A stretch of 40,480 nt of DNA from Phycisphaerae bacterium (GTDB lineage: Bacteria > Planctomycetota > Phycisphaerae > Phycisphaerales > SM1A02). Positions 1,332-28,167 of this stretch are shown here, piece by piece. The translations under genes were made by a program, and so were the position numbers. The DNA is taken from assembly GCA_016873315.1 (NCBI GenBank), contig VGXL01000009.1:1-40480 (forward strand), written 5' to 3'. Each line of letters starts with the position of its first letter. The stretch's first letter is position 1. The notes beneath the pieces were generated by a model that did no database searches, was not told the DNA's origin, and saw nothing but the letters and a program-made list of their open reading frames with translations.

Positions 1332-2099
<768 letters not shown>

Positions 2100-2108
2100 G
2101 CGGGGGCG

Positions 2109-2115
2109 TACACTA
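2109..2115. promoter_or_regulatory. Shared bidirectional -10 element between terC and the DUF1573 gene
   Basis: The heptamer TACACTA reads TACACT on the plus strand (6 bases before the ATG at 2121) and TAGTGT on the minus strand (10 bases before the ATG at 2099). The two start codons are only 21 bases apart, so any promoter for either gene must overlap the other. Both transcripts would be leaderless or nearly leaderless. No clear -35 box is visible. Confidence 0.6.
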
Positions 2116-2120
2116 ACGCC

Positions 2121-3242
2121 ATGCGGACCATCCTGACCGTGCTGTGGACCATGGGTTCGATCGCCTGCGGGCAGAGCCCTGCACCGACTGCTGATGCGTC
2201 GACGGCACCCGTCGCTGCCCCGGCGCCCGTCGCTGCCACGGCGGCCGCGGCAGAACCAGCGCCGACCCAAGCTCCCGCCCCGCAGCAGCGCACCACCGCG
2301 GCGCAGGCGCACCCACTGGTCGTCGATCCGCCCAAGGTCGACTTCGGCGCAGTACCGCCTGGTGCGCGCAAGTCGACCACCTTCACGCTGCGCAATCCGA
2401 CCGGCTCGCCGCTGAAGATCATCGATGCCAAGCCCAGCTGCAAGTGCACCGACATCACGCCGATGAAGGGCGTGACGATTCCCGCAGGTGGTTCCGTCGA
2501 GTTGAAGGCAACCTTGGCGGTCCCCCGAACGCCCGGCAAGAAGGACGCCAAGGTGATGATCGTCGTCGAGCAGTACGGCATGACGGTCGCGCAGATGGAA
2601 GCCACCGCCACGCTGCCGATCATGGCCTCACCTGAGTATGTCGAGGCGCTCAAGGGTGTCAGCTCGGGCTCCTTCACGCTGACCGCAGCCGATGGCGCGC
2701 CATTCCATGTGATTGGTTCGTGGGGCCTTCCCATCACCGAGGTGGAGCCAGGCTCGAAGCCATCGCATGTCATGACCTGGACGACCGGTGGCGAAAGCGG
2801 CCCGCTCCCGCAGTGGGTGGTGGTCGCAACCGATCGCGCTGATGCACCCTTGGTCGCGCTGCGCATTCGCCACGAATCAACCGGCACGCTCTTCGACAAG
2901 GATGCACGCGAGGCCCGTCAGTGGTTCTTCGCGGATCCGCTCGTTGTGGCAGGCCGCATGGGCCAGGGAACGAAGCAGCAACTCGAACTTGATCTCGAGA
3001 GCACGAACCCCGCCGCTCGACGCATTCCGGTCCGCGAAGGATGGAACGCTGTGACAGGCGTGTCGTGCGTGGCGAGCGGATTCGCGTGCACGCTTGCCGA
3101 GGCAAAGATCGATGGCGACTTCGTCCGTGTGAAGATCGACTTCACGGTGGACCAGGCGCCATCAGGGCTCCACGTCGTCCCCGTGACGATCACCACCACG
3201 ACCGGTTCCGGCGTGATCCCCGTAGCGGTCCTTGTGCCGTGA
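2121..3242 (+). CDS. DUF1573 domain lipoprotein
   Basis: 373-residue exported protein. The N-terminus MRTILTVLWTMGSIAC gives an imperfect lipobox (SIAC, Cys16), followed by an Ala/Pro-rich linker to about residue 62. The DUF1573 immunoglobulin-like domain follows, with the typical VDFGAVPPGARKSTTFTLRN opening and the family's SCKCT cysteine pair, roughly residues 68-150. The remaining ~220 residues look beta-rich and I do not recognise them. DUF1573 proteins are widespread in Planctomycetota and Bacteroidota and have no established biochemical role. The stop codon overlaps the GTG of the next gene (GTGA), so the two are likely translationally coupled. The start ATG follows a -10 box by 6 bases, with no Shine-Dalgarno. 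Confidence 0.8.
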   Translation: MRTILTVLWTMGSIACGQSPAPTADASTAPVAAPAPVAATAAAAEPAPTQAPAPQQRTTAAQAHPLVVDPPKVDFGAVPPGARKSTTFTLRNPTGSPLKIIDAKPSCKCTDITPMKGVTIPAGGSVELKATLAVPRTPGKKDAKVMIVVEQYGMTVAQMEATATLPIMASPEYVEALKGVSSGSFTLTAADGAPFHVIGSWGLPITEVEPGSKPSHVMTWTTGGESGPLPQWVVVATDRADAPLVALRIRHESTGTLFDKDAREARQWFFADPLVVAGRMGQGTKQQLELDLESTNPAARRIPVREGWNAVTGVSCVASGFACTLAEAKIDGDFVRVKIDFTVDQAPSGLHVVPVTITTTTGSGVIPVAVLVP

Positions 3243-4126
3243 GCGTCGTCAGCGTCGATACCCGCGATGCCGCGGAGGTCATCAAGGTCCTGGACGCGGC
3301 GGCCGAGTGCATGCGCACCGCCGAAGGCCGCCGCGGCGCGACGAAGTGGATCCCGTCACGCGGCACGCTGTTCGCGACCGGTGACCTTCATGACAACATT
3401 GATCACCTGCAGACCATCCTGAAAATTGCGGATCTTGATCGGTGGCCTCACCACCACATCATCCTGCATGAATTGATCCATGGCGAAGTCTCGATGGGCG
3501 GCATGGACACGAGCTATCGCATGCTCGTGCGCGCCGCGGAACTCGTCGTGGCCTATCCCCGACAGGTGCATCCGCTCTTGGCGAATCACGAACTCGCGCA
3601 ACTGTGCAAGTTGCGGATCTCCAAAGGGGCAGGGGAGCAGGTCTCTCAGTTCCTCGATGGACTCGAGTGGGTGTTCGGTGATCAGGCGCCCCACGTCAGC
3701 GACGCGATCGACCGCTTCATCTTGGCCATGCCGCTTGCGCTTCGAACGACGAGCGGCCTGTTCTGCGCGCACAGCACGCCTCCGCCGTACGAAGTCGAGT
3801 CGGTCGATGTGGATGCGCTGGACAGGGATCTTGACCCGATGTCGTACGACGATCGGGACGGACTGGCTTGGCAGTTCACATGGGGTCGGGACCAGACCCC
3901 CGAGAGTTCCAAGCGCATGGCCGAACGGCTCGGCGCGCAACTGATGGTCTGTGGCCATGCACATGTCGAATACGGGGCCGAGGCCTTGTCGCCCGAACTC
4001 CTGCTTCTCAACAGCGATCACGCGCGAGGTGTCGTCGTCGAGATCCTGCTCGAGGGCCCGATGCCGCCTGCCTCCGAGCTCGTCGACGAGGTGCACTACC
4101 TCGCGTTGATCGGTTTGAAGGGATGA
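3239..4126 (+). CDS. Calcineurin-like metallophosphoesterase
   Basis: 295-residue cytoplasmic protein starting at a GTG that overlaps the upstream stop as GTGA. Metallophosphoesterase motifs are recognisable: TGDLHDN (Asp49, His51), ANHE (Asn116-Glu118) and CGHAHVEYG near residue 240. The second motif, normally GDxxDRG and supplying a metal-bridging Asp, reads LHELIHGEV here (about residues 76-84), so Asp is replaced by Glu/His chemistry or the site is altered. The substrate cannot be told from sequence; relatives hydrolyse nucleotides, phosphoproteins or dinucleotide polyphosphates. The gene sits between a DUF1573 lipoprotein and tsaB, with 4-base overlaps on both sides, which implies co-translation but not necessarily a shared function. 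Confidence 0.75.
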   Translation: MSVVSVDTRDAAEVIKVLDAAAECMRTAEGRRGATKWIPSRGTLFATGDLHDNIDHLQTILKIADLDRWPHHHIILHELIHGEVSMGGMDTSYRMLVRAAELVVAYPRQVHPLLANHELAQLCKLRISKGAGEQVSQFLDGLEWVFGDQAPHVSDAIDRFILAMPLALRTTSGLFCAHSTPPPYEVESVDVDALDRDLDPMSYDDRDGLAWQFTWGRDQTPESSKRMAERLGAQLMVCGHAHVEYGAEALSPELLLLNSDHARGVVVEILLEGPMPPASELVDEVHYLALIGLKG

Positions 4127-4878
4127 CGGCCGGGCTCGCCATCACTGGCTCACAAAGGGCCGTCGGCGTCGCCGCGTGGCGTGATGGGCGTGATGTCATC
4201 GCGGTGAACCACCTCGATCCCGCGCGCGATCGCGATTGGCTGTGGCCATCGATCGACGAAGCGTGTCGTCGCGCGGGAGTCGTTGCGTCGGAGCTCAGTT
4301 GGATCGCAGTGGACATCGGGCCTGGCGGGTTCAGTGGACTTCGCACGACCATTGCTGCTGCGCAATCGATCGCGATGGTGCACGGACTGCCGTGCATCGC
4401 CGTGCCCTCGGCGCTTGTCGCAGCATGTTCGGTGTGGCCCGATGTGGCCGCATGCGCTCACGCGTCAGCGACATGCGCTCACGCGTCGGGTGGTGGGTCG
4501 GGTGCGTCGCTCGCTGGCATGTCGGTCTCGGCGCACGCCGTCCTGGCCGTGAAGGGCGCGACGGCGTGGATCGCGACGCTTGAGCGCGATGAAGATGGAT
4601 GGCGCCAATGCGCGGCGTCGGTGATCGAGTGGGGGAGGTGGGCGCCACGCGCCGGCTCACTGGTGCTCGGCGATGCGCACTGCCCGGCGGCGTTGCGTGA
4701 GTCCTGCGAGGCGCATGGGGCGACCATGGTCGAACCGACTTGGACCGGAACGGGCGTGATGAACGCAGCGCGCCGACTCTGGCAGGACGGGCAGTTCGTG
4801 CGCCCCTGTGCACTCAGCCCCGAGTACGCGCGGGAGCCTGAAGCCGTGACCCTTTGGCGCCAGCGGCACGGCGGATAA
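4123..4878 (+). CDS. tsaB: tRNA threonylcarbamoyladenosine biosynthesis protein TsaB
   Basis: 251-residue member of the TsaB/YeaZ branch of the ASKHA fold. TsaB is the non-catalytic partner that holds TsaD in the complex making t6A37 of ANN-reading tRNAs. Diagnostic residues are DIGPGGFSGLRTTIAAAQSIA (family consensus GPGSFTGLR...), followed by GLPCIAVPSAL, and the C-terminal LSPEYAREPEAV, matching the usual PxYLR ending. The ATG overlaps the upstream stop (ATGA). The centre (about residues 110-130) contains an Ala/Gly/Ser insertion partly made of a duplicated AHAS unit, encoded by a short tandem repeat. Confidence 0.85.
   Translation: MTAGLAITGSQRAVGVAAWRDGRDVIAVNHLDPARDRDWLWPSIDEACRRAGVVASELSWIAVDIGPGGFSGLRTTIAAAQSIAMVHGLPCIAVPSALVAACSVWPDVAACAHASATCAHASGGGSGASLAGMSVSAHAVLAVKGATAWIATLERDEDGWRQCAASVIEWGRWAPRAGSLVLGDAHCPAALRESCEAHGATMVEPTWTGTGVMNAARRLWQDGQFVRPCALSPEYAREPEAVTLWRQRHGG
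4451..4487 (+). repeat. 21-bp-period tandem repeat inside tsaB
   Basis: The 16-mer starting CATGCGCTCACG occurs at 4451 and again at 4472. It adds seven residues in frame (AHASATC then AHAS) to a loop of TsaB that is not conserved in the family, so it looks like a recent in-frame slippage event. Confidence 0.7.
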
Positions 4879-20461: not shown

Positions 20462-21712
20462 TCGCGGCCCGGCCGACACGCGACCGGTGCCCACGGCAAG
20501 CAGCGCCACCGCTGCTTTTTCATGGCTTTCCAAGCACTCCCGCATCGGGTCGGCGTCGGCCACGATGCCGCATCCGGTCCAGTAGGTCAGCCGCGTTCCG
20601 CCGTCGACTTCCTCAAGCGCGAAGGTCCTGATGGCCACGCTGAGCGCCACCGCGCCATCGTCACCGAGCCATCCGAGCGCGCCGCAGTATGGCCCGCGCG
20701 AGAACGGCTCGAGCTCGTCGATGATCTGCATCGCGCGGACTTTCGGCGCGCCCGTGACCGAGCCTGGAGGGAAGGTGGCGCGCAGGAGCTCAGCATGCCC
20801 CACGCCGGGGCGAAGCGTCCCCGACACTTCGGCGACGGCATGCTGCACGGTGGGGTGGCGCTCGATCGAGCGCGGTTCACTCACGCGCACTGAACCGATC
20901 GAGCAGACCCGGCCGAGATCATTGCGCATCAGATCGACGATCATGTGGAGCTCGGCGCGCTCCTTGTCGCATCGTTCCAGTTCGTCCGCGCATCCGTCGG
21001 CACCCCGTGTTCCCTTGATCGGACGCGTGCGGACCGACCGCGCTTGGGCATCGACCGCGAGGAACAGTTCAGGCGAGACGCTCAGCACGGCGCGCCCCGG
21101 GCTGAGCTCCGCGTAGGCCCCGTAGCGTGCGGGGACTCGATCGAGCACGCCGAGCGCCCACGCGCGCATCGGCATCGGCACGAATCCCGACCAGATGCGT
21201 GCGATGTTGGCCTGGAAGATGTCGCCGGCTCGTACATACTCGCGCACCCGCGCCACGGCGCGCGCAAAGTCAGCATCGCTCGTCTGCGGTTCCAGTGTTC
21301 CCGCACGGGACTCGGGCAGCGTGGCAAGGGGCGGCAATTCTGCGCTGGACCAAGTGCGATGCTCATGATCGAACGCATGCGTGTGACGGGCACGAAGCAG
21401 CGTGCCGTCGCCGAACGGCGACTCTGGGCGTGCACCCGCCCTCGCCATCGGTTCGATCGTCGCGCCGAGCCCGTACGAGAGACTGGCGATCCAACCGCCA
21501 TCTGCTGTGTGCGGAACCGTCGCAAGTGCGTCGAACAACCGTTGTCCCATTCCGGCCGACGCGTGCACCGTGCGCTCGACCTCGACCAGTGTGCTCGTGC
21601 GGGCATGTGGCCCGCCGCCGCCGCTCGACAGGAGCGCCAACGGCCTCGACGGAGAGCATCCGAACGCCCGCCGAATCGGTTCGTCGAGGGTGGGTTCTGC
21701 GGCCACGGCCAT
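20453..21712 (-). CDS. pabB: Aminodeoxychorismate synthase component I
   Basis: 419-residue chorismate-binding enzyme. The active-site signature PIKGTRG (Lys233) marks it as PabB, which makes 4-amino-4-deoxychorismate for folate; TrpE has PIAGT. Other family blocks: AGDIFQANIAR, SPELFL, DLMRNDLGRVC, PPGSVTGAPKVRAMQIIDELE, GALGWL, and the final YWTGCGIVADADPMRECLES. No glutamine amidotransferase (PabA) or lyase (PabC) lies nearby. The start is the ATG at 21712, 6 bases after a TAGGAT box, giving a leaderless mRNA. Confidence 0.9.
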   Translation of the reverse strand: MAVAAEPTLDEPIRRAFGCSPSRPLALLSSGGGGPHARTSTLVEVERTVHASAGMGQRLFDALATVPHTADGGWIASLSYGLGATIEPMARAGARPESPFGDGTLLRARHTHAFDHEHRTWSSAELPPLATLPESRAGTLEPQTSDADFARAVARVREYVRAGDIFQANIARIWSGFVPMPMRAWALGVLDRVPARYGAYAELSPGRAVLSVSPELFLAVDAQARSVRTRPIKGTRGADGCADELERCDKERAELHMIVDLMRNDLGRVCSIGSVRVSEPRSIERHPTVQHAVAEVSGTLRPGVGHAELLRATFPPGSVTGAPKVRAMQIIDELEPFSRGPYCGALGWLGDDGAVALSVAIRTFALEEVDGGTRLTYWTGCGIVADADPMRECLESHEKAAVALLAVGTGRVSAGPRDR

Positions 21713-21718
21713 CGCACG

Positions 21719-21724
21719 ATCCTA
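21719..21724 (-). promoter_or_regulatory. -10 box of pabB
   Basis: TAGGAT on the minus strand with 6 bases before the ATG, so transcription probably begins at the start codon. Confidence 0.55.
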
Positions 21725-21747
21725 GCGATCCCGGGAGGTGGAATCGC

Positions 21748-21753
21748 TACACT
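21748..21753 (+). promoter_or_regulatory. Candidate -10 box of the ppdK operon
   Basis: TACACT, 84 bases before the ATG. The leader would be about 78 bases; I see no known riboswitch in it. A GAGG stands 11 bases before the start. Confidence 0.45.
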
Positions 21754-21837
21754 CAACGACCCGTCCGGGCGCATTCCTGCTGCAGGATTCGTGCTTCCGG
21801 ACGCTTGCCAACGAACCCACCAACGAGGCTCCACACC

Positions 21838-22014
21838 ATGCCCCCGAGCACCCTGCGTCGCCCGACCAAGACCACGAAGGTCACCAAGCACACCAAGCGC
21901 GCGAAGGCGACCAATGCCCCGAAGGTGACCAAGGCCCCCAAGGCGGTGCGAGCCGCGAAGGCAACCAAGGCCCTGAAGCCGACCAAGGCCCCTGCGAAGG
22001 GCGTGCGCGGTCCG
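21838..22014 (+). other. Histone H1-like KxxK tail on PPDK
   Basis: The DNA is a degenerate repeat built on ACCAAG/GCGAAG/GCCCCCAAG. Lys falls at residues 11, 14, 17, 20, 23, 29, 32, 35, 41, 44, 47 and 50, a 3-residue period typical of H1-like bacterial DNA-binding tails. Reading-frame conservation of this period supports it being translated. Confidence 0.65.
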
Positions 22015-24663
22015 ATGTCGAGCGCCCCCAAGTCGGGCAAGATGGTCTTCTACTTCGGTCGCACCAAGTGCGAAGGCAAGGCCGAGCAGAAGTTGCTGCT
22101 TGGTGGCAAGGGTGCCAACCTTGCCGACATGACCTCGATCGGGCTGCCGGTTCCCCCCGGCTTCACGATCACGACCGACACATGCGCTCGCTACTACACC
22201 GAAGGTCGCCGTCTGCCCAAGGGTTTGTTGGACGAGGTCCGCGGCCACATCGCCACGCTCGAAAAGGAACTTGGCAAGAAGCTTGGCGACATGCGCAACC
22301 CGCTCCTGGTGAGCGTGCGTTCGGGCGCGGCCGTCAGCATGCCGGGCATGATGGACACGGTCCTCAACCTTGGCCTGAATGATCTGGTCGTGCTCGGCCT
22401 CGCGGAAGCCACCGGCAATCGCCGATTCGCCTTCGATGCGTTCCGCCGACTGATCAACATGTTCGGCGATGTCGTGATGGGCGTGGATCATCACCACTTC
22501 GAGCGCGAGTTCGATGCGATCAAGACGAAGTACGGCGCCGCCAGCGACACCGATGTGCCGACCGTTGGCCTTGAGGAACTCTGCTTCGCCTACAAGCGCG
22601 TGTACCGGGAGCATGTGGGCGAGGAGTTCCCCCAGGATCCGATGAAGCAGCTCGAACTGTCCATCGAAGCCGTCTTCAAGAGCTGGAACGGCGATCGCGC
22701 GATCTCGTACCGCAACATCAACGACATCAAGGGACTGAACGGCACCGCCGTGAATGTGCAGGCGATGGCCTACGGCAACATGGGCGATGACTCGGGCACC
22801 GGCGTTGCGTTCACGCGCGACCCGTCGACGGGCGAGAACATCTTCTACGGCGAGTTCCTGGTGAACGCGCAGGGCGAGGATGTCGTGGCAGGCATTCGCA
22901 CGCCGCGCCCGATCAGTGAGATGGACGACTGGATGCCCGCGGTCTACAAGCAACTCCTGAAGGTGCGCTCGACTCTCGAGAAGCACTACAAGGACATGCA
23001 GGACATCGAGTTCACGGTGGAGAAGGGCAAGCTCTTCATGCTGCAGACCCGCAACGGCAAGCGCACCGGCACGGCCGCTGTGCGCGTGGCCGTGGAGATG
23101 GTCAAGGAGAAGTTGATCGACGAGAAGACCGCCCTCAAGCGCATTCCCGCCGGTGACCTGACGCAGCTTCTGCTGCCGAGTTTCCAAGCGAAGGACACGG
23201 CCGGCGTCACCGTGTTGACTAAGGGCATCGGCGCGAGCCCAGGCGCCGCGACTGGCAAGCTCGCGTTCACCGCCGCCGAGGCCGTGGAGCGCGCACGGGC
23301 GGGCGAGCAGGTGCTGCTCGTGCGCAAGGAAACCAGCCCCGAAGATGTCGAGGGCATGCACAAGGCCGTCGGCATCCTGACGAGCACTGGCGGCAAGACC
23401 AGCCATGCGGCGGTCGTCGCCGTGGGCTGGGGCAAGTGCTGCGTCGTTGGCGCAGGTGAACTCTCTATGGACACCGAGGCCGGAACGATGACGGTCGCGG
23501 GTCGAACCTTCGGTCGCCAGGATGTGCTGTCGATCGACGGCACGACCGGCGAAGTCATGCTCGGCAGCGTGACGCGCACCGTGCCTGAGTCGCTCGGCGG
23601 AGACTTCGCCACCATCATGCAGTGGGCCGATCGGCACGCGCGCATGAAGGTGCGCACCAACGCCGACACGCCGGCCGATGCGCGCCGCGCGCGCGAGTTC
23701 GGTGCCGTGGGCATCGGACTGTGCCGCACTGAACACATGTTCTTCGAGGGTGACCGCATCAAGGCGGTGCGCCAGATGATCCTTGCCTCGGATCGCGATG
23801 ACCGCGAGAGCGCCATCGCGAAGCTCCTTCCGTTCCAGCGCGAAGACTTCGTCGGGATCTTCACGGCGATGGACGGCTATCCGGTCACGGTGCGTCTGCT
23901 CGACCCGCCGCTGCATGAGTTCGTGCCGCACGAGCATGCGCAGCAGGAAGAACTCGCTCAGGAGGCTGGTGTCCCCGTGAGTGAGGTCAAGCGCCGCGTG
24001 GCTCAACTCCACGAGCACAATCCCATGCTTGGTCACCGCGGCTGCCGACTGGCTGTGACGTACCCGGAAATCCTCGTCATGCAGGTTCGCGCCATCGTCG
24101 AGGCGACGCTGCACTGCCTTGAGCAGGGCATCGATGCCCAGCCAGAAATCATGATTCCGCTTGTTGGCACGCGTCGCGAGCTGGCGAGCCTGCGCGACCT
24201 CACGGCGCGCACGATCGCCGAGGTCTGCGCCGAGCGCGGCGTCAAGGCGCCGAAGATCCCGATCGGCACCATGATCGAGATCCCGCGTGCTGCCGTCACC
24301 GCCGATGAGATCGCCGAAGCGGCCGAGTTCTTTAGCTTCGGCACCAACGACCTGACGCAAATGACCTTCGGCTTCAGCCGCGACGACATCGGCTCGTTCC
24401 TGCCGGCGTACATCGTGAAGGGACTGCTCGACAAGGATCCGTTCCAGTCGATCGACCAGGACGGCGTTGGTCAACTCGTTCGCATGGCGTGCGTGAAGGG
24501 CCGTCAGGCTCGCGAGAAACTCAAGCTCGGCGTGTGCGGCGAGCATGGCGGCGATCCGGCGAGCATCCGCTTCTTCGGATCGTGCGGTCTTGACTATGTC
24601 AGCTGCTCGCCGTTCCGCGTCCCCGTGGCGCGGTTGGCTGCTGCGCAGGCTGCGATGGCATGA
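21838..24663 (+). CDS. ppdK: Pyruvate, phosphate dikinase with lysine-rich N-terminal extension
   Basis: 941 residues; interconverts pyruvate + ATP + Pi and PEP + AMP + PPi. Residues 60-941 are a normal PPDK: MVFYFGRTKCEGKAEQKLLLGGKGANLADM, the nucleotide-binding SVRSGAAVSMPGMMDT, the phosphohistidine swivelling domain GGKTSHAAVVA (His523, with the regulatory-type Thr two residues before), and the PEP/pyruvate barrel with IGLCRTEHMFF, FGTNDLTQMTFGFSRDD and GVCGEHGGDP (Cys900). Residues 1-59 are extra: 13 Lys, 5 Arg, no acidic residues, otherwise mainly Thr/Ala/Pro/Val. The ATG at 22015 (MSSAPKSGKMVFYFG) would give a standard-length enzyme and is the alternative start. The stop overlaps the next ATG (ATGA), heading a likely six-gene operon. 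Confidence 0.93.
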   Translation: MPPSTLRRPTKTTKVTKHTKRAKATNAPKVTKAPKAVRAAKATKALKPTKAPAKGVRGPMSSAPKSGKMVFYFGRTKCEGKAEQKLLLGGKGANLADMTSIGLPVPPGFTITTDTCARYYTEGRRLPKGLLDEVRGHIATLEKELGKKLGDMRNPLLVSVRSGAAVSMPGMMDTVLNLGLNDLVVLGLAEATGNRRFAFDAFRRLINMFGDVVMGVDHHHFEREFDAIKTKYGAASDTDVPTVGLEELCFAYKRVYREHVGEEFPQDPMKQLELSIEAVFKSWNGDRAISYRNINDIKGLNGTAVNVQAMAYGNMGDDSGTGVAFTRDPSTGENIFYGEFLVNAQGEDVVAGIRTPRPISEMDDWMPAVYKQLLKVRSTLEKHYKDMQDIEFTVEKGKLFMLQTRNGKRTGTAAVRVAVEMVKEKLIDEKTALKRIPAGDLTQLLLPSFQAKDTAGVTVLTKGIGASPGAATGKLAFTAAEAVERARAGEQVLLVRKETSPEDVEGMHKAVGILTSTGGKTSHAAVVAVGWGKCCVVGAGELSMDTEAGTMTVAGRTFGRQDVLSIDGTTGEVMLGSVTRTVPESLGGDFATIMQWADRHARMKVRTNADTPADARRAREFGAVGIGLCRTEHMFFEGDRIKAVRQMILASDRDDRESAIAKLLPFQREDFVGIFTAMDGYPVTVRLLDPPLHEFVPHEHAQQEELAQEAGVPVSEVKRRVAQLHEHNPMLGHRGCRLAVTYPEILVMQVRAIVEATLHCLEQGIDAQPEIMIPLVGTRRELASLRDLTARTIAEVCAERGVKAPKIPIGTMIEIPRAAVTADEIAEAAEFFSFGTNDLTQMTFGFSRDDIGSFLPAYIVKGLLDKDPFQSIDQDGVGQLVRMACVKGRQAREKLKLGVCGEHGGDPASIRFFGSCGLDYVSCSPFRVPVARLAAAQAAMA

Positions 24664-25523
24664 GTCGACTGGCTCCCGTTGCCGCGGTGTGGTCCACGGC
24701 CTTCGGGGCCGCGTGCGTCACGGTGGGCTCGGAGTACGCGGCGCCAGCGCCCGTGCCCACGCAACCGATCGCGCACGCGCCGTTGAGTGACGACGCGCCG
24801 TTCGTCAGCGTGGCGCCGGTGCTCGATGGCCGGTTCGATGCTGATCCCGCGTGGGATTCGGTGCCGTGGTCGACTGAGTTTGTCGACATCGAGGGGCCCG
24901 ACCGCACTGCACCGCGTTTCTCCACGCGCATGAAGATGTGCTGGGACCAGTCGTTCCTCTTCGTCCTCGCCGACATGCAGGAGCCCGACCTCTGGGCGAC
25001 CCTCACGCGCCACGACGAGATCGTCTTCCACGACCACGACATCGAGGTCTTCATCGACCCCGACGGTGACACGCGCGAGTACTACGAGATCGAGGTGAAT
25101 GCGCTCGGGACGGTGTTCGATCTCTTCTTGCACACGCCGTACCGCGCAGGCGGTCCGGCAGACCATGGATGGAACGCCGCCGGGATGCGGCTGGGGATCG
25201 ATCTGCGCGGCACGCTCAATGATCCGCGGGACCGTGACAACGGATGGTCCATCGAACTCGCCATTCCCTGGGAGTGCCTGCAGCCCATGGGCGCGCCGGG
25301 AACGGGCGCGAAGCACCAGGCCGTGGCGTTGCCGCCCAATCCGGGCGACGCGTGGCGCATCAACTTCAGCCGTGTCGAATGGACGCTCGAGGTTCGCGAG
25401 GGGACCTATGCCAAGGTTCCTGGTCGACCCGAAGACAATTGGACCTGGACCCCGCAGTGGGAAATCAACATGCATGTGCCCCAGCATTGGGGCACCGTGC
25501 GATTCACCAAGGAGCAGCCGTGA
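24660..25523 (+). CDS. Exported carbohydrate-binding family 9-like protein
   Basis: 287 residues. A short hydrophobic N-terminus with Cys19 (STAFGAAC) could be a lipoprotein or ordinary signal. The rest matches the CBM9-like domain found in many environmental bacteria: APVLDGRFDADPAWDSVPW, then TRMKMCWDQSFLFVLADMQEPDLWAT, HDHDIEVFIDPDGD, YYEIEVNALGTVFDLFL, IELAIPWECL and WRINFSRVEW. Such domains bind sugars or accompany glycan-active enzymes. It is translationally coupled to ppdK upstream (ATGA) and to the GDH-like gene downstream (GTGA), an unusual place for an exported protein. The sugar ligand is unknown. Confidence 0.75.
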   Translation: MSRLAPVAAVWSTAFGAACVTVGSEYAAPAPVPTQPIAHAPLSDDAPFVSVAPVLDGRFDADPAWDSVPWSTEFVDIEGPDRTAPRFSTRMKMCWDQSFLFVLADMQEPDLWATLTRHDEIVFHDHDIEVFIDPDGDTREYYEIEVNALGTVFDLFLHTPYRAGGPADHGWNAAGMRLGIDLRGTLNDPRDRDNGWSIELAIPWECLQPMGAPGTGAKHQAVALPPNPGDAWRINFSRVEWTLEVREGTYAKVPGRPEDNWTWTPQWEINMHVPQHWGTVRFTKEQP

Positions 25524-26839
25524 ACAGCCCAAGCAGCATGGACACCACCGCCCGCATCATGGAGCGATTGGGCATCACGCCCACCGATGGTTCGCTCTAC
25601 CACCAGATGCTCCCGCGCATGCTGCAAGCAGCGCAGCTCACGGGGTTGCCCGATGATCAGCGCATCGTGATGGCGCAGCCCAAGAGCGAGATCACGACCC
25701 ACTTCCCGGTCCTGCTCGACGACGGGTCCTACCAGCTCTTCACCGGATACCGCATCCAGCACAACAACGCGCTCGGGCCGTTCAAGGGCGGCATGCGCTT
25801 CCATCCTCATGTGAACTCCGAGGACCTCAAGGGCCTCGCGATGCTCATGACGCTCAAGTGCAGCCTGCTGCGCCTGCCCTTCGGCGGCGCTGCGGGTGGC
25901 GTGGCGTGCGATCCGCGACTCCTCAGCCGCGACGAGTTGCAACGCGTGGTCCGACGCTTCGCCAGTTCGATCAGCCACCAGATCGGACCGGACCTCGATG
26001 TGCCCGGGCCCGAGGTTGGCGCAGACAGCCAGACCATGGCGTGGTTCGTCGACACGATCGTGCAGACCTCGCCGGAATCCTCGCGGCAGCTCATGAGTGC
26101 GAGCGTGACGGGGAAGCCGCCCGAGATCGGTGGTTACGCAGGTCGTGATACGGCTGTCGGACGCGGTTTCATCGCAGTGCTCGAGGAGATGCTGCCTGAC
26201 TTCGGACTTGGCCTCGATGGACTTCGCTACACGCTCGCGGGATACGGTCGCGTGGGAAGCCAGATTGCGCGCTTCTTGCAAGGGCGCGGAGCAAAGTTGG
26301 TCGGCGTGCAGATCCGCAACGGCGCGCTCGTGAACCCCGAGGGCATCGACCCGGTCGCGCTCTGGCGCCACCTCGCGGCGACGGGCGGCCCCAACGGTTT
26401 CGCCGGGGCGAACTTGGTGGGCGAGGAGCCCTTCTATCGAACGGGGGCCGATCTCCTGATCCTTGCCGCAGGAGAGCGGACGCTCGATGCCAAGCGCGCG
26501 GAGTGGGTTGCGCCCACGCTCATTGCCGAAGCCGCGAACCTGCCGTGGACGCCCGAAGCCGATGACATTCTTGCGCGCCGAGCGATCGATGCGATCCCGA
26601 GTGTCCTCTGCAATTCGGGTGCTGTGGTCGGCAGTTACATCGAGTGGGTGCAGAACCGTGCCTACACCAGCATTACGCCGACGGAGTTCGATGAGCGTCT
26701 GCAGCTGGCGGTTTCGCTGGCTTCGCGCCGCGTGAAGTTGGCGCGCATGCGGTACGAGTGCGACTGGCGCACCGCGGCCTACTGCGCTGCGCTCGACCAC
26801 CTCGGTCGCGTGTACGACCTTCGCGGCTTCTTCCCCTGA
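25520..26839 (+). CDS. Glu/Leu/Phe/Val dehydrogenase homologue lacking the catalytic Lys and Asp
   Basis: 439 residues from a GTG overlapping the CBM9-like stop; an ATG at 25538 is an alternative. The GDH fold is clear: GPFKGGMRFHPHVNSEDLKGLAMLMTLKCS, SVTGKPPEIGGYAGRDTAVGRGF, the Rossmann motif LAGYGRVGSQIARFL and the C-terminal AEAANLPWTPEADDIL...NSGAVVGSYIEWVQN. Substrate-carboxylate Lys89 and Lys113 equivalents are kept. The signature GGAKGG, which carries the catalytic Lys, reads GGAAGG (Ala125, codon GCG at 25892), and the conserved Asp of the PAxDV block is Glu165 (PGPEV, codon GAG at 26012). Both residues are essential in studied glutamate, leucine and phenylalanine dehydrogenases, so ordinary oxidative deamination is unlikely. 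A regulatory, binding or altered catalytic role is possible. Confidence 0.8.
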   Translation: MNSPSSMDTTARIMERLGITPTDGSLYHQMLPRMLQAAQLTGLPDDQRIVMAQPKSEITTHFPVLLDDGSYQLFTGYRIQHNNALGPFKGGMRFHPHVNSEDLKGLAMLMTLKCSLLRLPFGGAAGGVACDPRLLSRDELQRVVRRFASSISHQIGPDLDVPGPEVGADSQTMAWFVDTIVQTSPESSRQLMSASVTGKPPEIGGYAGRDTAVGRGFIAVLEEMLPDFGLGLDGLRYTLAGYGRVGSQIARFLQGRGAKLVGVQIRNGALVNPEGIDPVALWRHLAATGGPNGFAGANLVGEEPFYRTGADLLILAAGERTLDAKRAEWVAPTLIAEAANLPWTPEADDILARRAIDAIPSVLCNSGAVVGSYIEWVQNRAYTSITPTEFDERLQLAVSLASRRVKLARMRYECDWRTAAYCAALDHLGRVYDLRGFFP

Positions 26840-26860: not shown

Positions 26861-27274
26861 ATGGCCAGCATCTTCACGCGCATCATCCGCGGCGAGATTC
26901 CCTGCCACCGCGTTCATGAGGATGCCCACATCGTTGCGTTCCTGGACATCGCGCCGCTCGCGCCAGGTCATGTCCTCGTGGTGCCCCGCCAGGAAGTCGA
27001 GTTCCTGCATGAACTCGATGATGCACACGCCGCGGCGCTCGGACGGGCGCTGCCCAAGATCGCGCGCGCCATGCTTGCCGCCACGGGCGCCACGGCCTAC
27101 AACCTGCTCCAGAACAACGGTGCGCTCGCGCATCAGGCCGTTCCGCATGTGCACATGCACCTCATTCCACGATTCGAGGATGGACGGGGCCTGGGAATCA
27201 GTTGGCGCGCTGGACAGATGGATCACGCCGAGGCCGCCGCGCTCGCGGCACGGATGAGAGAGCTCGTCGCATGA
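26861..27274 (+). CDS. HIT family (HINT-like) nucleotide hydrolase
   Basis: 137-residue cytoplasmic protein of the histidine-triad family, which hydrolyses AMP-lysine, adenosine phosphoramidates and acyl-adenylates. The triad HVHMH (His96, His98, His100) and the N-terminal IFTRIIRGEIPCHRVHED plus NLLQNNG are typical of the HINT branch. GGAAAGG lies about 8 bases before the ATG. The gene begins 21 bases after the GDH-like stop, and its stop overlaps the nadC ATG (ATGA). Confidence 0.92.
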   Translation: MASIFTRIIRGEIPCHRVHEDAHIVAFLDIAPLAPGHVLVVPRQEVEFLHELDDAHAAALGRALPKIARAMLAATGATAYNLLQNNGALAHQAVPHVHMHLIPRFEDGRGLGISWRAGQMDHAEAAALAARMRELVA

Positions 27275-28167
27275 ATGCACCGATGTGGACTGACGCCTGC
27301 GAGCGCGAGGCGCAACGGGTCGTCCACGCTTCGCTCAGCGAGGACCTTGGTGAACGCGGCGATCTGACGAGCGCTCTGGTCATGAAGTGCCGCGGTCGGG
27401 ATGCTGGCACGATGCATGCTGCGGTCGTGTCACGCGAAGCGGGCGTGTTGGCGGGGGCTCGAACGGGCGGCCTCGTCGCATCGGCAGTGGGGGCGACATG
27501 GGAGCCAGTGCTCGAAGATGGCGCCGCGCTCTCGATCGGTTCCGTGGTCGGACGGCTGCACGGACCTGCCGCGGGCGTGCTCGCTGGCGAACGCACGCTG
27601 CTCAATCTGCTCGGTGTTCTCTGCGGCACGGCGACCGTGACGCGTCGCTTCGTCGAGTCGGTCGCCGGCACGCGCGCGTGCGTGTGCGACACGCGCAAGA
27701 CGCTGCCCGGTCTGCGACGGTTGCAGAAGTTCGCGGTGGCGTGCGGCGGCGGCACGCCCCATCGGATGGGGCTGCACGATGCGGTGCTCGTGAAGGACAA
27801 CCATCTTGCTGGGCTCGATCCGACCGAGATCGCTGGCCTTGCCAGCCGATTGGCACCTGATGCTCGCGCAGCCGGGGCTGCGTTCATTGAGTTCGAAGTG
27901 GATGGGCTCGATCAGTTCGACGCGTTGCTGGCGCTTCCCGCCGGCACGATCGACATGGTGCTGCTGGACAACTTCGATCTGCCGATGCTCCGCGAGGCTG
28001 CGCAGCGGCGTGATGCACGCGCGCCGGGGCTGCTGCTCGAAGCCAGTGGCGGCGTCAAGCTTGAGACGATCGCCGCGATCGCGGCGACCGGTGTGGACCG
28101 GATCTCCGTGGGTGCGCTCACACACAGCGTCCGGTCGCTTGATCTGGGTCTGGATGCGCTCGCGTGA
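27271..28167 (+). CDS. nadC: Nicotinate-nucleotide pyrophosphorylase (carboxylating)
   Basis: 298 residues; converts quinolinate and PRPP to nicotinate mononucleotide and CO2 in de novo NAD synthesis. Family blocks in order: SEDLGERGDLTSAL, GERTLLNLLGVLCGTAT, CDTRKTLPGLRRLQKFAV (PRPP/quinolinate contacts), GGGTPHRMGLHDAVLVKDNH, IEFEVDGLDQ, DMVLLDNF and LEASGGVKLETIAAIAATGVDRISVGALTHS. Coupled to HIT (ATGA) and birA (GTGA). nadA and nadB are not in the window. Confidence 0.95.
   Translation: MNAPMWTDACEREAQRVVHASLSEDLGERGDLTSALVMKCRGRDAGTMHAAVVSREAGVLAGARTGGLVASAVGATWEPVLEDGAALSIGSVVGRLHGPAAGVLAGERTLLNLLGVLCGTATVTRRFVESVAGTRACVCDTRKTLPGLRRLQKFAVACGGGTPHRMGLHDAVLVKDNHLAGLDPTEIAGLASRLAPDARAAGAAFIEFEVDGLDQFDALLALPAGTIDMVLLDNFDLPMLREAAQRRDARAPGLLLEASGGVKLETIAAIAATGVDRISVGALTHSVRSLDLGLDALA

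Follow-up and report, generated by a model that had tools for sequence, protein, structure and literature searches.

What does a glutamate dehydrogenase (GDH) become when its catalytic residues are replaced and its gene is kept? The question is raised by a gene in a 40,480-nucleotide stretch of planctomycete DNA (Phycisphaerae bacterium, assembly GCA_016873315.1, contig VGXL01000009.1, positions 1 to 40,480 of the forward strand; this whole stretch is called the window below), which encodes a GDH-family protein with changes at two catalytic positions. The reading favored here, to which a probability of roughly 55% is assigned, is that the protein is a ligand-binding regulatory pseudoenzyme derived from a normal hexameric GDH; that GDH function at normal rates has been lost is held more firmly and is very probable. 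A preliminary description of the locus had proposed either a sensing pseudoenzyme or a new reaction; the former appears, from the comparisons below, to be the best reading, whereas the latter is retained as an unlikely alternative. The gene and the codons on which the argument turns are the following.

25520..26839 (stop included), plus strand: GDH-family pseudoenzyme (pseudo-GDH), 439 amino acids (PF02812, PF00208; structure model and PDB comparison)
25509..25514, plus strand: AAGGAG, ribosome-binding-like site 5 bases 5' of the GTG start (sequence)
25784..25786, plus strand: codon 89, Lys retained (alignment, codon table)
25856..25858, plus strand: codon 113, Lys retained (alignment, codon table)
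25892..25894, plus strand: codon 125, Ala replacing the catalytic Lys (translation, alignment, codon table)
25955..25957, plus strand: codon 146, Arg putatively aligned to the allosteric leucine-site Arg of Thermus thermophilus and bovine GDH (alignment)
26012..26014, plus strand: codon 165, Glu replacing the catalytic Asp (translation, alignment, codon table)
26051..26053, plus strand: codon 178, Asp putatively aligned to the allosteric leucine-site Asp (alignment)
26156..26158, plus strand: codon 213, Val, Thr in intact relatives (conserved-column comparison)
26249..26251, plus strand: codon 244, Arg, Asn (GFGNVG) in intact relatives of the order (conserved-column comparison)

The translation of 25520-26839, which begins with GTG, matches PF02812 with 163.5 bits (cut-off 25.3) and PF00208 with 144.2 bits (cut-off 23.4); its best score against an NCBIfam GDH equivalog model, 314.2 bits, lies below the cut-off of 620, which carries little weight because these cut-offs are clade-specific. 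Residue 125 is Ala within FGGAAGG, where catalytic hexameric GDHs have Lys in GGxKGG, and residue 165 is Glu within DVPGPEVG (PGPE), where they have Asp in PAPD. Lys89, which we take to contact the side-chain carboxylate of the substrate in GDH, Lys113, presumably the contact of the alpha-carboxylate, and a dinucleotide motif reading GYGRVG are present, and translation and alignment confirm the preliminary description in all of these points. The fold is predicted to be preserved despite the lost catalytic residues, as had also been proposed: the AlphaFold model of the protein (predicted local distance difference test score, pLDDT, 94.2; predicted template modeling score 0.92) has a GDH, 8owm_A, as its best structural match in the PDB (Z 55.8, root-mean-square deviation 1.7 over 412 aligned residues).

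The window's genus (g1; genera are numbered in this way throughout) is represented by nine genomes in the collection, seven of which carry the gene, namely the window's own and six others with proteins 92-95% identical to it. In the remaining two, G003 yielded no GDH match, its contig stopping within the neighboring CBM9-like gene, and G006 matched neither GDH nor CBM9. Both GGAAGG and PGPEVG are present in 7/7 proteins of the genus, and codon 125 is GCC in five genomes, GCT in one and GCG in one. Since seven concordant genomes share both changes and vary synonymously at codon 125, a sequencing or assembly error at codons 125 and 165, which had been named as a possible refutation, is ruled out.

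The two replacements do not stand alone. Across 32 intact rows of the alignment described below, 149 positions have one residue in at least 95% of the rows, and further changes of the window protein at such conserved columns include A163G, T168A, T213V, N244R and D265I; the consensus of g1 keeps 116 of the 149 conserved positions, that of g56 93 and that of g58 127. Sites 213 and 244, which we assume to lie on the nicotinamide/dinucleotide side of GDH, are altered in most genera that have lost Lys125, Asp165 or both (called broken below), with Thr213 kept in some g47 proteins and Asn244 in some g25 proteins. Among 12 loci with intact GDHs from other phyla, Thr213 is present in 12/12, and position 244 is Asn in 7/12 and Lys in 5/12. 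Because Lys occurs there in five intact enzymes, a change of Asn244 alone proves little, and its value as a mark of lost function is weakened by this control.

That useful GDH activity has nevertheless been kept is hardly credible. Both carboxylate lysines and the fold remain, the exchange of Asp for Glu preserves a carboxylate, and, according to an excerpt of PMC12018205, a Lys80 mutant of leucine dehydrogenase (LeuDH) kept 1.5% of its deamination activity and was partly rescued by ammonia. Against this, the window protein combines changes of the Lys, of the Asp and of positions on the dinucleotide side, and the single mutants of relatives in the same excerpt were disabled, a clostridial GDH losing 100,000-fold in deamination upon an Asp-to-Ser exchange (printed as Asp156 and D156S there, and as D165S in the title of the reference that it gives).

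The changes are not confined to the window's genus. Of 181 genomes searched in the window's family, 145 gave matches at E<=1e-20, in many cases to a different GDH class of about 31% identity. The resulting alignment of 102 rows comprises 66 members of the clade described next, two further broken proteins and 19 intact orthologues of the family, one paralogue, and 14 order-level rows from other families of the order for which a locus was given; order-level matches without a locus (for example, in G060 and G040), a fragment of 105 amino acids in G198 and matches below about 205 bits (the other GDH class) were excluded. It should be kept in mind that the genomes are drafts, that counts follow ancestry and are not independent, and that start codons were chosen by script (nearest start), so that N-termini are approximate.

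The 66 broken proteins, from ten genera of one GTDB family, form a single clade with a support of 98 in the Shimodaira-Hasegawa-like approximate likelihood ratio test in a quick tree, and of 98/97 in a more careful tree of 48 rows (27 clade members) from which nine trait columns had been removed. Lys125, Asp165 or both are lost in 66/66 clade members, and both residues are kept in the 19 family orthologues, the 14 order-level rows and 12/12 loci of other phyla. The intact orthologues, 43-53% identical, are found at the corresponding locus in g28, g51, g29, g23 and further genera of the family. Within the clade, the residues at 125/165 are as follows, the replacement letters differing among genera and being mostly fixed within a genus.

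g1: Ala/Glu (7/7)
g47: Ala/Asp (15/15)
g2: Ala/Asp (1)
g62: Cys/Glu (1)
g6: Phe/Asp (2)
g25: Tyr/Gly (10/10)
g58: Lys/Gly (14/14)
g26: Met/Asp (1)
g17: Phe with Asp or Glu (4)
g56: Phe with Asp or Glu (11)

The expectation of a clade of homologues with Ala and Glu at these sites is therefore borne out for the losers of Lys or Asp as a group, but not for the exact Ala/Glu pair, which is exclusive to g1. Likewise, the idea of two independent active-site losses is only partly borne out, since g47, g2, g6, g26 and some proteins of g17 and g56 retain Asp165, and g58 retains Lys125. Two more broken proteins, from g9 (Ser/Asp; GGSSGA; locus L111) and g48 (Ala/Asp; GGGAGA; locus L103), are placed among the intact ones in the trees, but a separate origin of their losses is not established, as a single clade for all 29 broken rows was not rejected by the approximately unbiased test (p 0.144).

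Is the gene simply decaying? Such a relic would be a GDH that became redundant beside another, large, NAD-dependent GDH (NAD-GDH), its active site drifting and the gene on its way out, and this explanation is considered unlikely. Ratios of nonsynonymous to synonymous substitution (dN/dS) were obtained by Nei-Gojobori counting, with dS partly saturated and pairs outside dS 0.05-1.6 dropped (65/105 in g47, 47/91 in g58, 16/55 in g56, 3/6 in g17 and 3/45 in g25). The medians in broken genera are 0.045 in g1 (21/21 pairs), 0.046 in g17 (3/6), 0.065 in g58 (44/91), 0.080 in both g25 (42/45) and g47 (40/105), 0.101 in g6 (1/1) and 0.120 in g56 (39/55). They thus span 0.045-0.120 and do not exceed the range of the intact genera (g51 0.113, g52 0.106, g30 0.097, g28 0.186, and g57 0.037 from one pair), although single pairs reach 0.372 in g25 and 0.341 in g56, which a relic would explain. 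The tree also carries eight letter changes at site 125, as might be expected of drift. Yet within genera the Ala, Tyr, Phe and Gly replacements stay the same while, at most of these sites, their codons vary synonymously: Ala125 is encoded in 15/15 g47 proteins by four different codons (GCT six times, GCG five, GCA three, GCC once), and Tyr125 is held in 10/10 g25 proteins. There is no internal stop in any clade match listed. The low dN/dS and the held replacement residues speak against drift, the gene is under purifying selection, and open frames together with low dN/dS lead to the rejection of pseudogene status for the clade as a whole. Also in favor of a relic, the gene is missing from an otherwise intact locus, in which ppdK (pyruvate, phosphate dikinase), the CBM9-like gene and a HIT-domain gene are present, in six genomes of three broken genera: G067, G072, G073 and G074 of g47, G145 of g58 and G190 of g25. 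At these loci (L188, L189, L190 and L191; L192; L201) the CBM9 and HIT matches lie 26-64 bases apart.

The redundancy that a relic would presuppose can be judged from the other GDHs of these genomes. In the window's genome, the one other PF02812 match is ScyB/LeuDH-like, has an intact GGAK motif and lies on another contig, and an open reading frame with the large-GDH domain reads EGGAK and GPDENI:

1675-4623 of locus L134 (contig 12 of the window's genome), minus strand: large NAD-GDH frame, 983 amino acids (PF05088)

This large enzyme may be the only GDH of the window organism. The model for the uridylyltransferase GlnD aligns through positions 600-727 of its 850 with residues 14-142 of this frame (38 bits), which perhaps represent a regulatory domain. 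A PF05088 large GDH was found in 62/66 broken-clade genomes versus 11/19 family genomes with an intact GDH (the latter counted by hand), a difference in the direction that redundancy would predict. The large GDH is not a strict condition for the catalytic loss, as 4/66 genomes lack a PF05088 match (G008, G140, G150 and G193, with completeness of 93, 77, 73 and 67%; G193 is in no row). No second small GDH at E<=1e-20 was found in any of the 66 broken-clade genomes, and glutamate synthase (PF01645 above 100 bits) was likewise found in 0/66, while it is present in certain genera of the family outside the clade; the only PF01645 match in the window's genome is weak and belongs to IMP dehydrogenase. 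Among the 19 genomes with an intact orthologue, hand counts gave 14 with a second match at E<=1e-20 and four with PF01645 above 100 bits, so that the lack of glutamate synthase is not peculiar to the broken clade.

A catalytically inactive GDH has a precedent. According to an excerpt of PMC9570180, GdhA of Thermus thermophilus is the catalytically inactive regulatory subunit of a hetero-hexameric GDH complex. Its structure shares the GDH fold with the window model (3aoe chain C, Z 53.8, 37% identity). For the 68-residue catalytic segment of the window protein, the best PDB sequence is 3aoe_E with 69.4 bits, versus 64.9 for the next; its length of 419 and its four chains, beside two of 424, fit the description of GdhA, and it is taken as such here. 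At the corresponding places it reads LPFGGAAGGIAVDP and ILGPDLGADQQ, so that the exchange of Lys for Ala (GGAAGG), of Ala163 for Gly and of Thr168 for Ala (GPxxGAD) is common to both proteins, whereas residue 165 is Glu in the window protein and Asp in GdhA. Elsewhere the likeness fades: the three remaining segments put 3aoe_E in 13th, 19th and 30th place, the full-length protein puts it 14th, and a profile built from 11 proteins of the broken clade 21st. Orthology to GdhA is unsupported outside the catalytic segment. Because GdhA comes first for that segment only, the likeness is probably convergent, the Thermus and planctomycete lineages probably having dismantled the active site in the same way independently.

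The parallel invites the view that the window protein, like GdhA, regulates a catalytic dehydrogenase within a mixed complex, in which its partner would be the large NAD-GDH (the 983-residue frame) or the ScyB/LeuDH-like enzyme. The shared Lys-to-Ala change and the presence of both candidate partners in the window's genome, each with a GGAK motif, are consistent with it. It is quite improbable all the same: in contrast to the Thermus system, no catalytic small GDH for co-assembly was found in the 66 draft genomes at E<=1e-20, the candidate partner genes lie on other contigs, and genomes that lack the pseudo-GDH can have the large GDH too. A different kind of precedent is provided by RocG and GudB of Bacillus, GDHs with a regulatory side-job exerted via protein contacts (as excerpted from PMC9522360); these are active enzymes, unlike the window protein, from which the catalytic residues are gone.

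The favored reading of a regulatory pseudoenzyme starts from the replacement, in one planctomycete lineage, of the catalytic Lys, the Asp and some dinucleotide-side positions of a normal hexameric GDH, with retention of the predicted fold, of both lysines for the substrate carboxylates and of the residues that match the allosteric leucine site. The pseudo-GDH would form a homohexamer that binds a 2-amino or 2-oxo acid (in g1, glutamate, 2-oxoglutarate or leucine) but does not turn it over to any useful extent. A partner protein would read its domain closure or its allosteric state, and the pseudo-GDH would in this way regulate amino-nitrogen metabolism, similarly to the action of GdhA on the GDH complex of Thermus. 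The large NAD-GDH (the 983-residue frame), encoded at another place in the genome, would have taken over the glutamate chemistry. Different genera may bind different ligands, because the proteins of g17 and g56 have lost carboxylate lysines.

Several observations weigh against this reading. From T213V and D265I it seems possible that normal dinucleotide binding is lost or altered, N244R carrying less weight. The allosteric leucine of Thermus thermophilus and bovine GDH is bound by an Arg and an Asp (excerpt of PMC9570180), which correspond by alignment to Arg146 and Asp178 of the window protein (the Thermus Asp counts as 167 in the alignment and as 166 in that excerpt). Across the seven genera of the codon table neither residue varies, and their codons change synonymously, that of Arg146 in six genera and that of Asp178 in two; Asp178 is also invariant in 57 aligned sequences. 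As both residues are retained in most GDHs, they constitute weak evidence for leucine binding. A common ligand for the whole clade appears unlikely, because the g17 and g56 proteins have lost Lys89 (Leu, His or Met in its place) and carry Arg at 113, and those of g17 also lack Ser372. The gene is dispensable, given its absence from six otherwise intact loci, and the search of the 66 draft genomes (E<=1e-20) found no catalytic partner of the Thermus type. Finally, in the excerpt of PMC12018205 the LeuDH Lys80 mutant was raised to 20% of wild type by 1 M ammonia, and the clostridial mutant, in which Ser and not Glu replaces the Asp, lost only 1000-fold in amination.

A retained enzymatic function with new chemistry is rather unlikely; here the pocket, without the Lys and with Glu for Asp, would catalyze a different NAD(P)-dependent step on a 2-oxo or amino acid, or one without redox chemistry. 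The replacements are genus-specific and conserved, as in a retuned site (Tyr125/Gly165 in g25, Phe125 in g17 and g56, Lys125/Gly165 in g58), and Lys89 and Lys113 are retained outside g17 and g56. Speaking against catalysis are the alteration, in the window protein and most broken genera, of Thr213, which all 12 distant intact GDHs keep, the fact that Ala125 contributes no chemistry, the lack of any new clade-wide acid or base in the conserved columns compared, and the resemblance of the catalytic segment to a known inactive subunit, Thermus GdhA.

A bolder form of the pseudoenzyme reading is put forward tentatively, as something that may well prove wrong: in a lineage of freshwater planctomycetes, the sole small hexameric GDH would have turned into a stand-alone family of metabolite-sensing pseudoenzymes with no catalytic sister subunit, each genus retuning the emptied pocket for its own ligand (Ala/Glu, Ala/Asp, Cys/Glu, Tyr/Gly, Phe/Asp, Lys/Gly, and K89L/K113R/Phe in two genera), and, in cells that lack glutamate synthase, a large NAD-GDH would have taken over glutamate chemistry. 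From Thermus, a catalytically dead GDH subunit is known in complex with a live one; here, a whole clade keeps a dead-looking GDH under purifying selection, with genus-specific replacements and no live small GDH found beside it. In the open-access literature, judged mostly by title, no paper was recognized as treating this clade. The clade offers a natural set of cases in which the path from enzyme to sensor can be studied, and a caution for metabolic reconstructions of lake bacteria, in which family models would label such genes glutamate dehydrogenase, both Pfam domains being matched far above their cut-offs.

The neighborhood of the gene bears on its origin and on its possible partners. In the window it comprises:

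21127..24663, plus strand: pyruvate, phosphate dikinase (ppdK), longest open reading frame (TIGR01828, 1324.7 bits)
24660..25523, plus strand: CBM9-like gene with a lipoprotein-like N-terminus (open reading frame list, profile search, N-terminus by eye)
26861..27274, plus strand: HIT-domain protein, downstream of the pseudo-GDH (profile search)
27202..28167, plus strand: quinolinate phosphoribosyltransferase (nadC), longest open reading frame, start probably later (profile search)

Overlaps of 4 bases between ppdK and the CBM9-like gene (24660-24663) and between the latter and the pseudo-GDH gene (25520-25523) are both real, in agreement with the translational coupling that had been described. 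The intact GDHs found at this locus elsewhere in the family are orthologous to the window protein, and ppdK lies within the fetched stretch in 11/19 of them, adjoining the GDH gene in, for example, g29, g55 and g61. This linkage identifies the pseudo-GDH as the syntenic orthologue of a normal hexameric GDH and not an added copy.

The intact loci differ from the window in that Lys125 and Asp165 are kept and CBM9 is not found. A CBM9 homologue is present at 57/58 broken-clade loci (the 66 members minus the window and seven not fetched with flanks) versus 0/19 intact family loci and 0/2 for g9 and g48, some of the stretches being short, and the anticipated ppdK-CBM9 neighborhood is thereby seen to be shared across the clade. 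This co-occurrence reflects one shared ancestry and not many events, and the position of CBM9 varies, being about 4 kb away in g26 and on the opposite strand in g17. Altogether, 122/181 family genomes contain CBM9 homologues, and in examples from g14, g7 and g3 CBM9 comes after ppdK in a stretch that has no GDH match. As CBM9 is also present at loci without the pseudo-GDH, it does not depend on it, and the candidate functional pair of CBM9 and GDH is weakened. In most of 13 loci read by eye, a lipobox-like Cys follows a hydrophobic stretch near the start of CBM9; from this lipoprotein-like N-terminus, the product is probably located outside the cytosol. The proposal that the pseudo-GDH reports nitrogen or carbon status to the ppdK-CBM9 operon finds no support in these results, as ppdK also accompanies intact GDHs and CBM9 occurs without this GDH and is probably not cytosolic.

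Some further features of the neighboring genes were observed. The true start of ppdK probably lies well inside the longest open reading frame, the TIGR01828 match beginning at residue 305, and a Lys/Ala-rich stretch of roughly 70 residues (KTTKVTKHTKRAKATNAPKVTKAPK...) is apparently located ahead of the dikinase domain. The best PDB sequence match of the CBM9-like protein is a xylanase module (1i82, E 9.8e-5), and two loci of g58 (L060 and L132) contain two tandem CBM9-like matches upstream of the GDH homologue.

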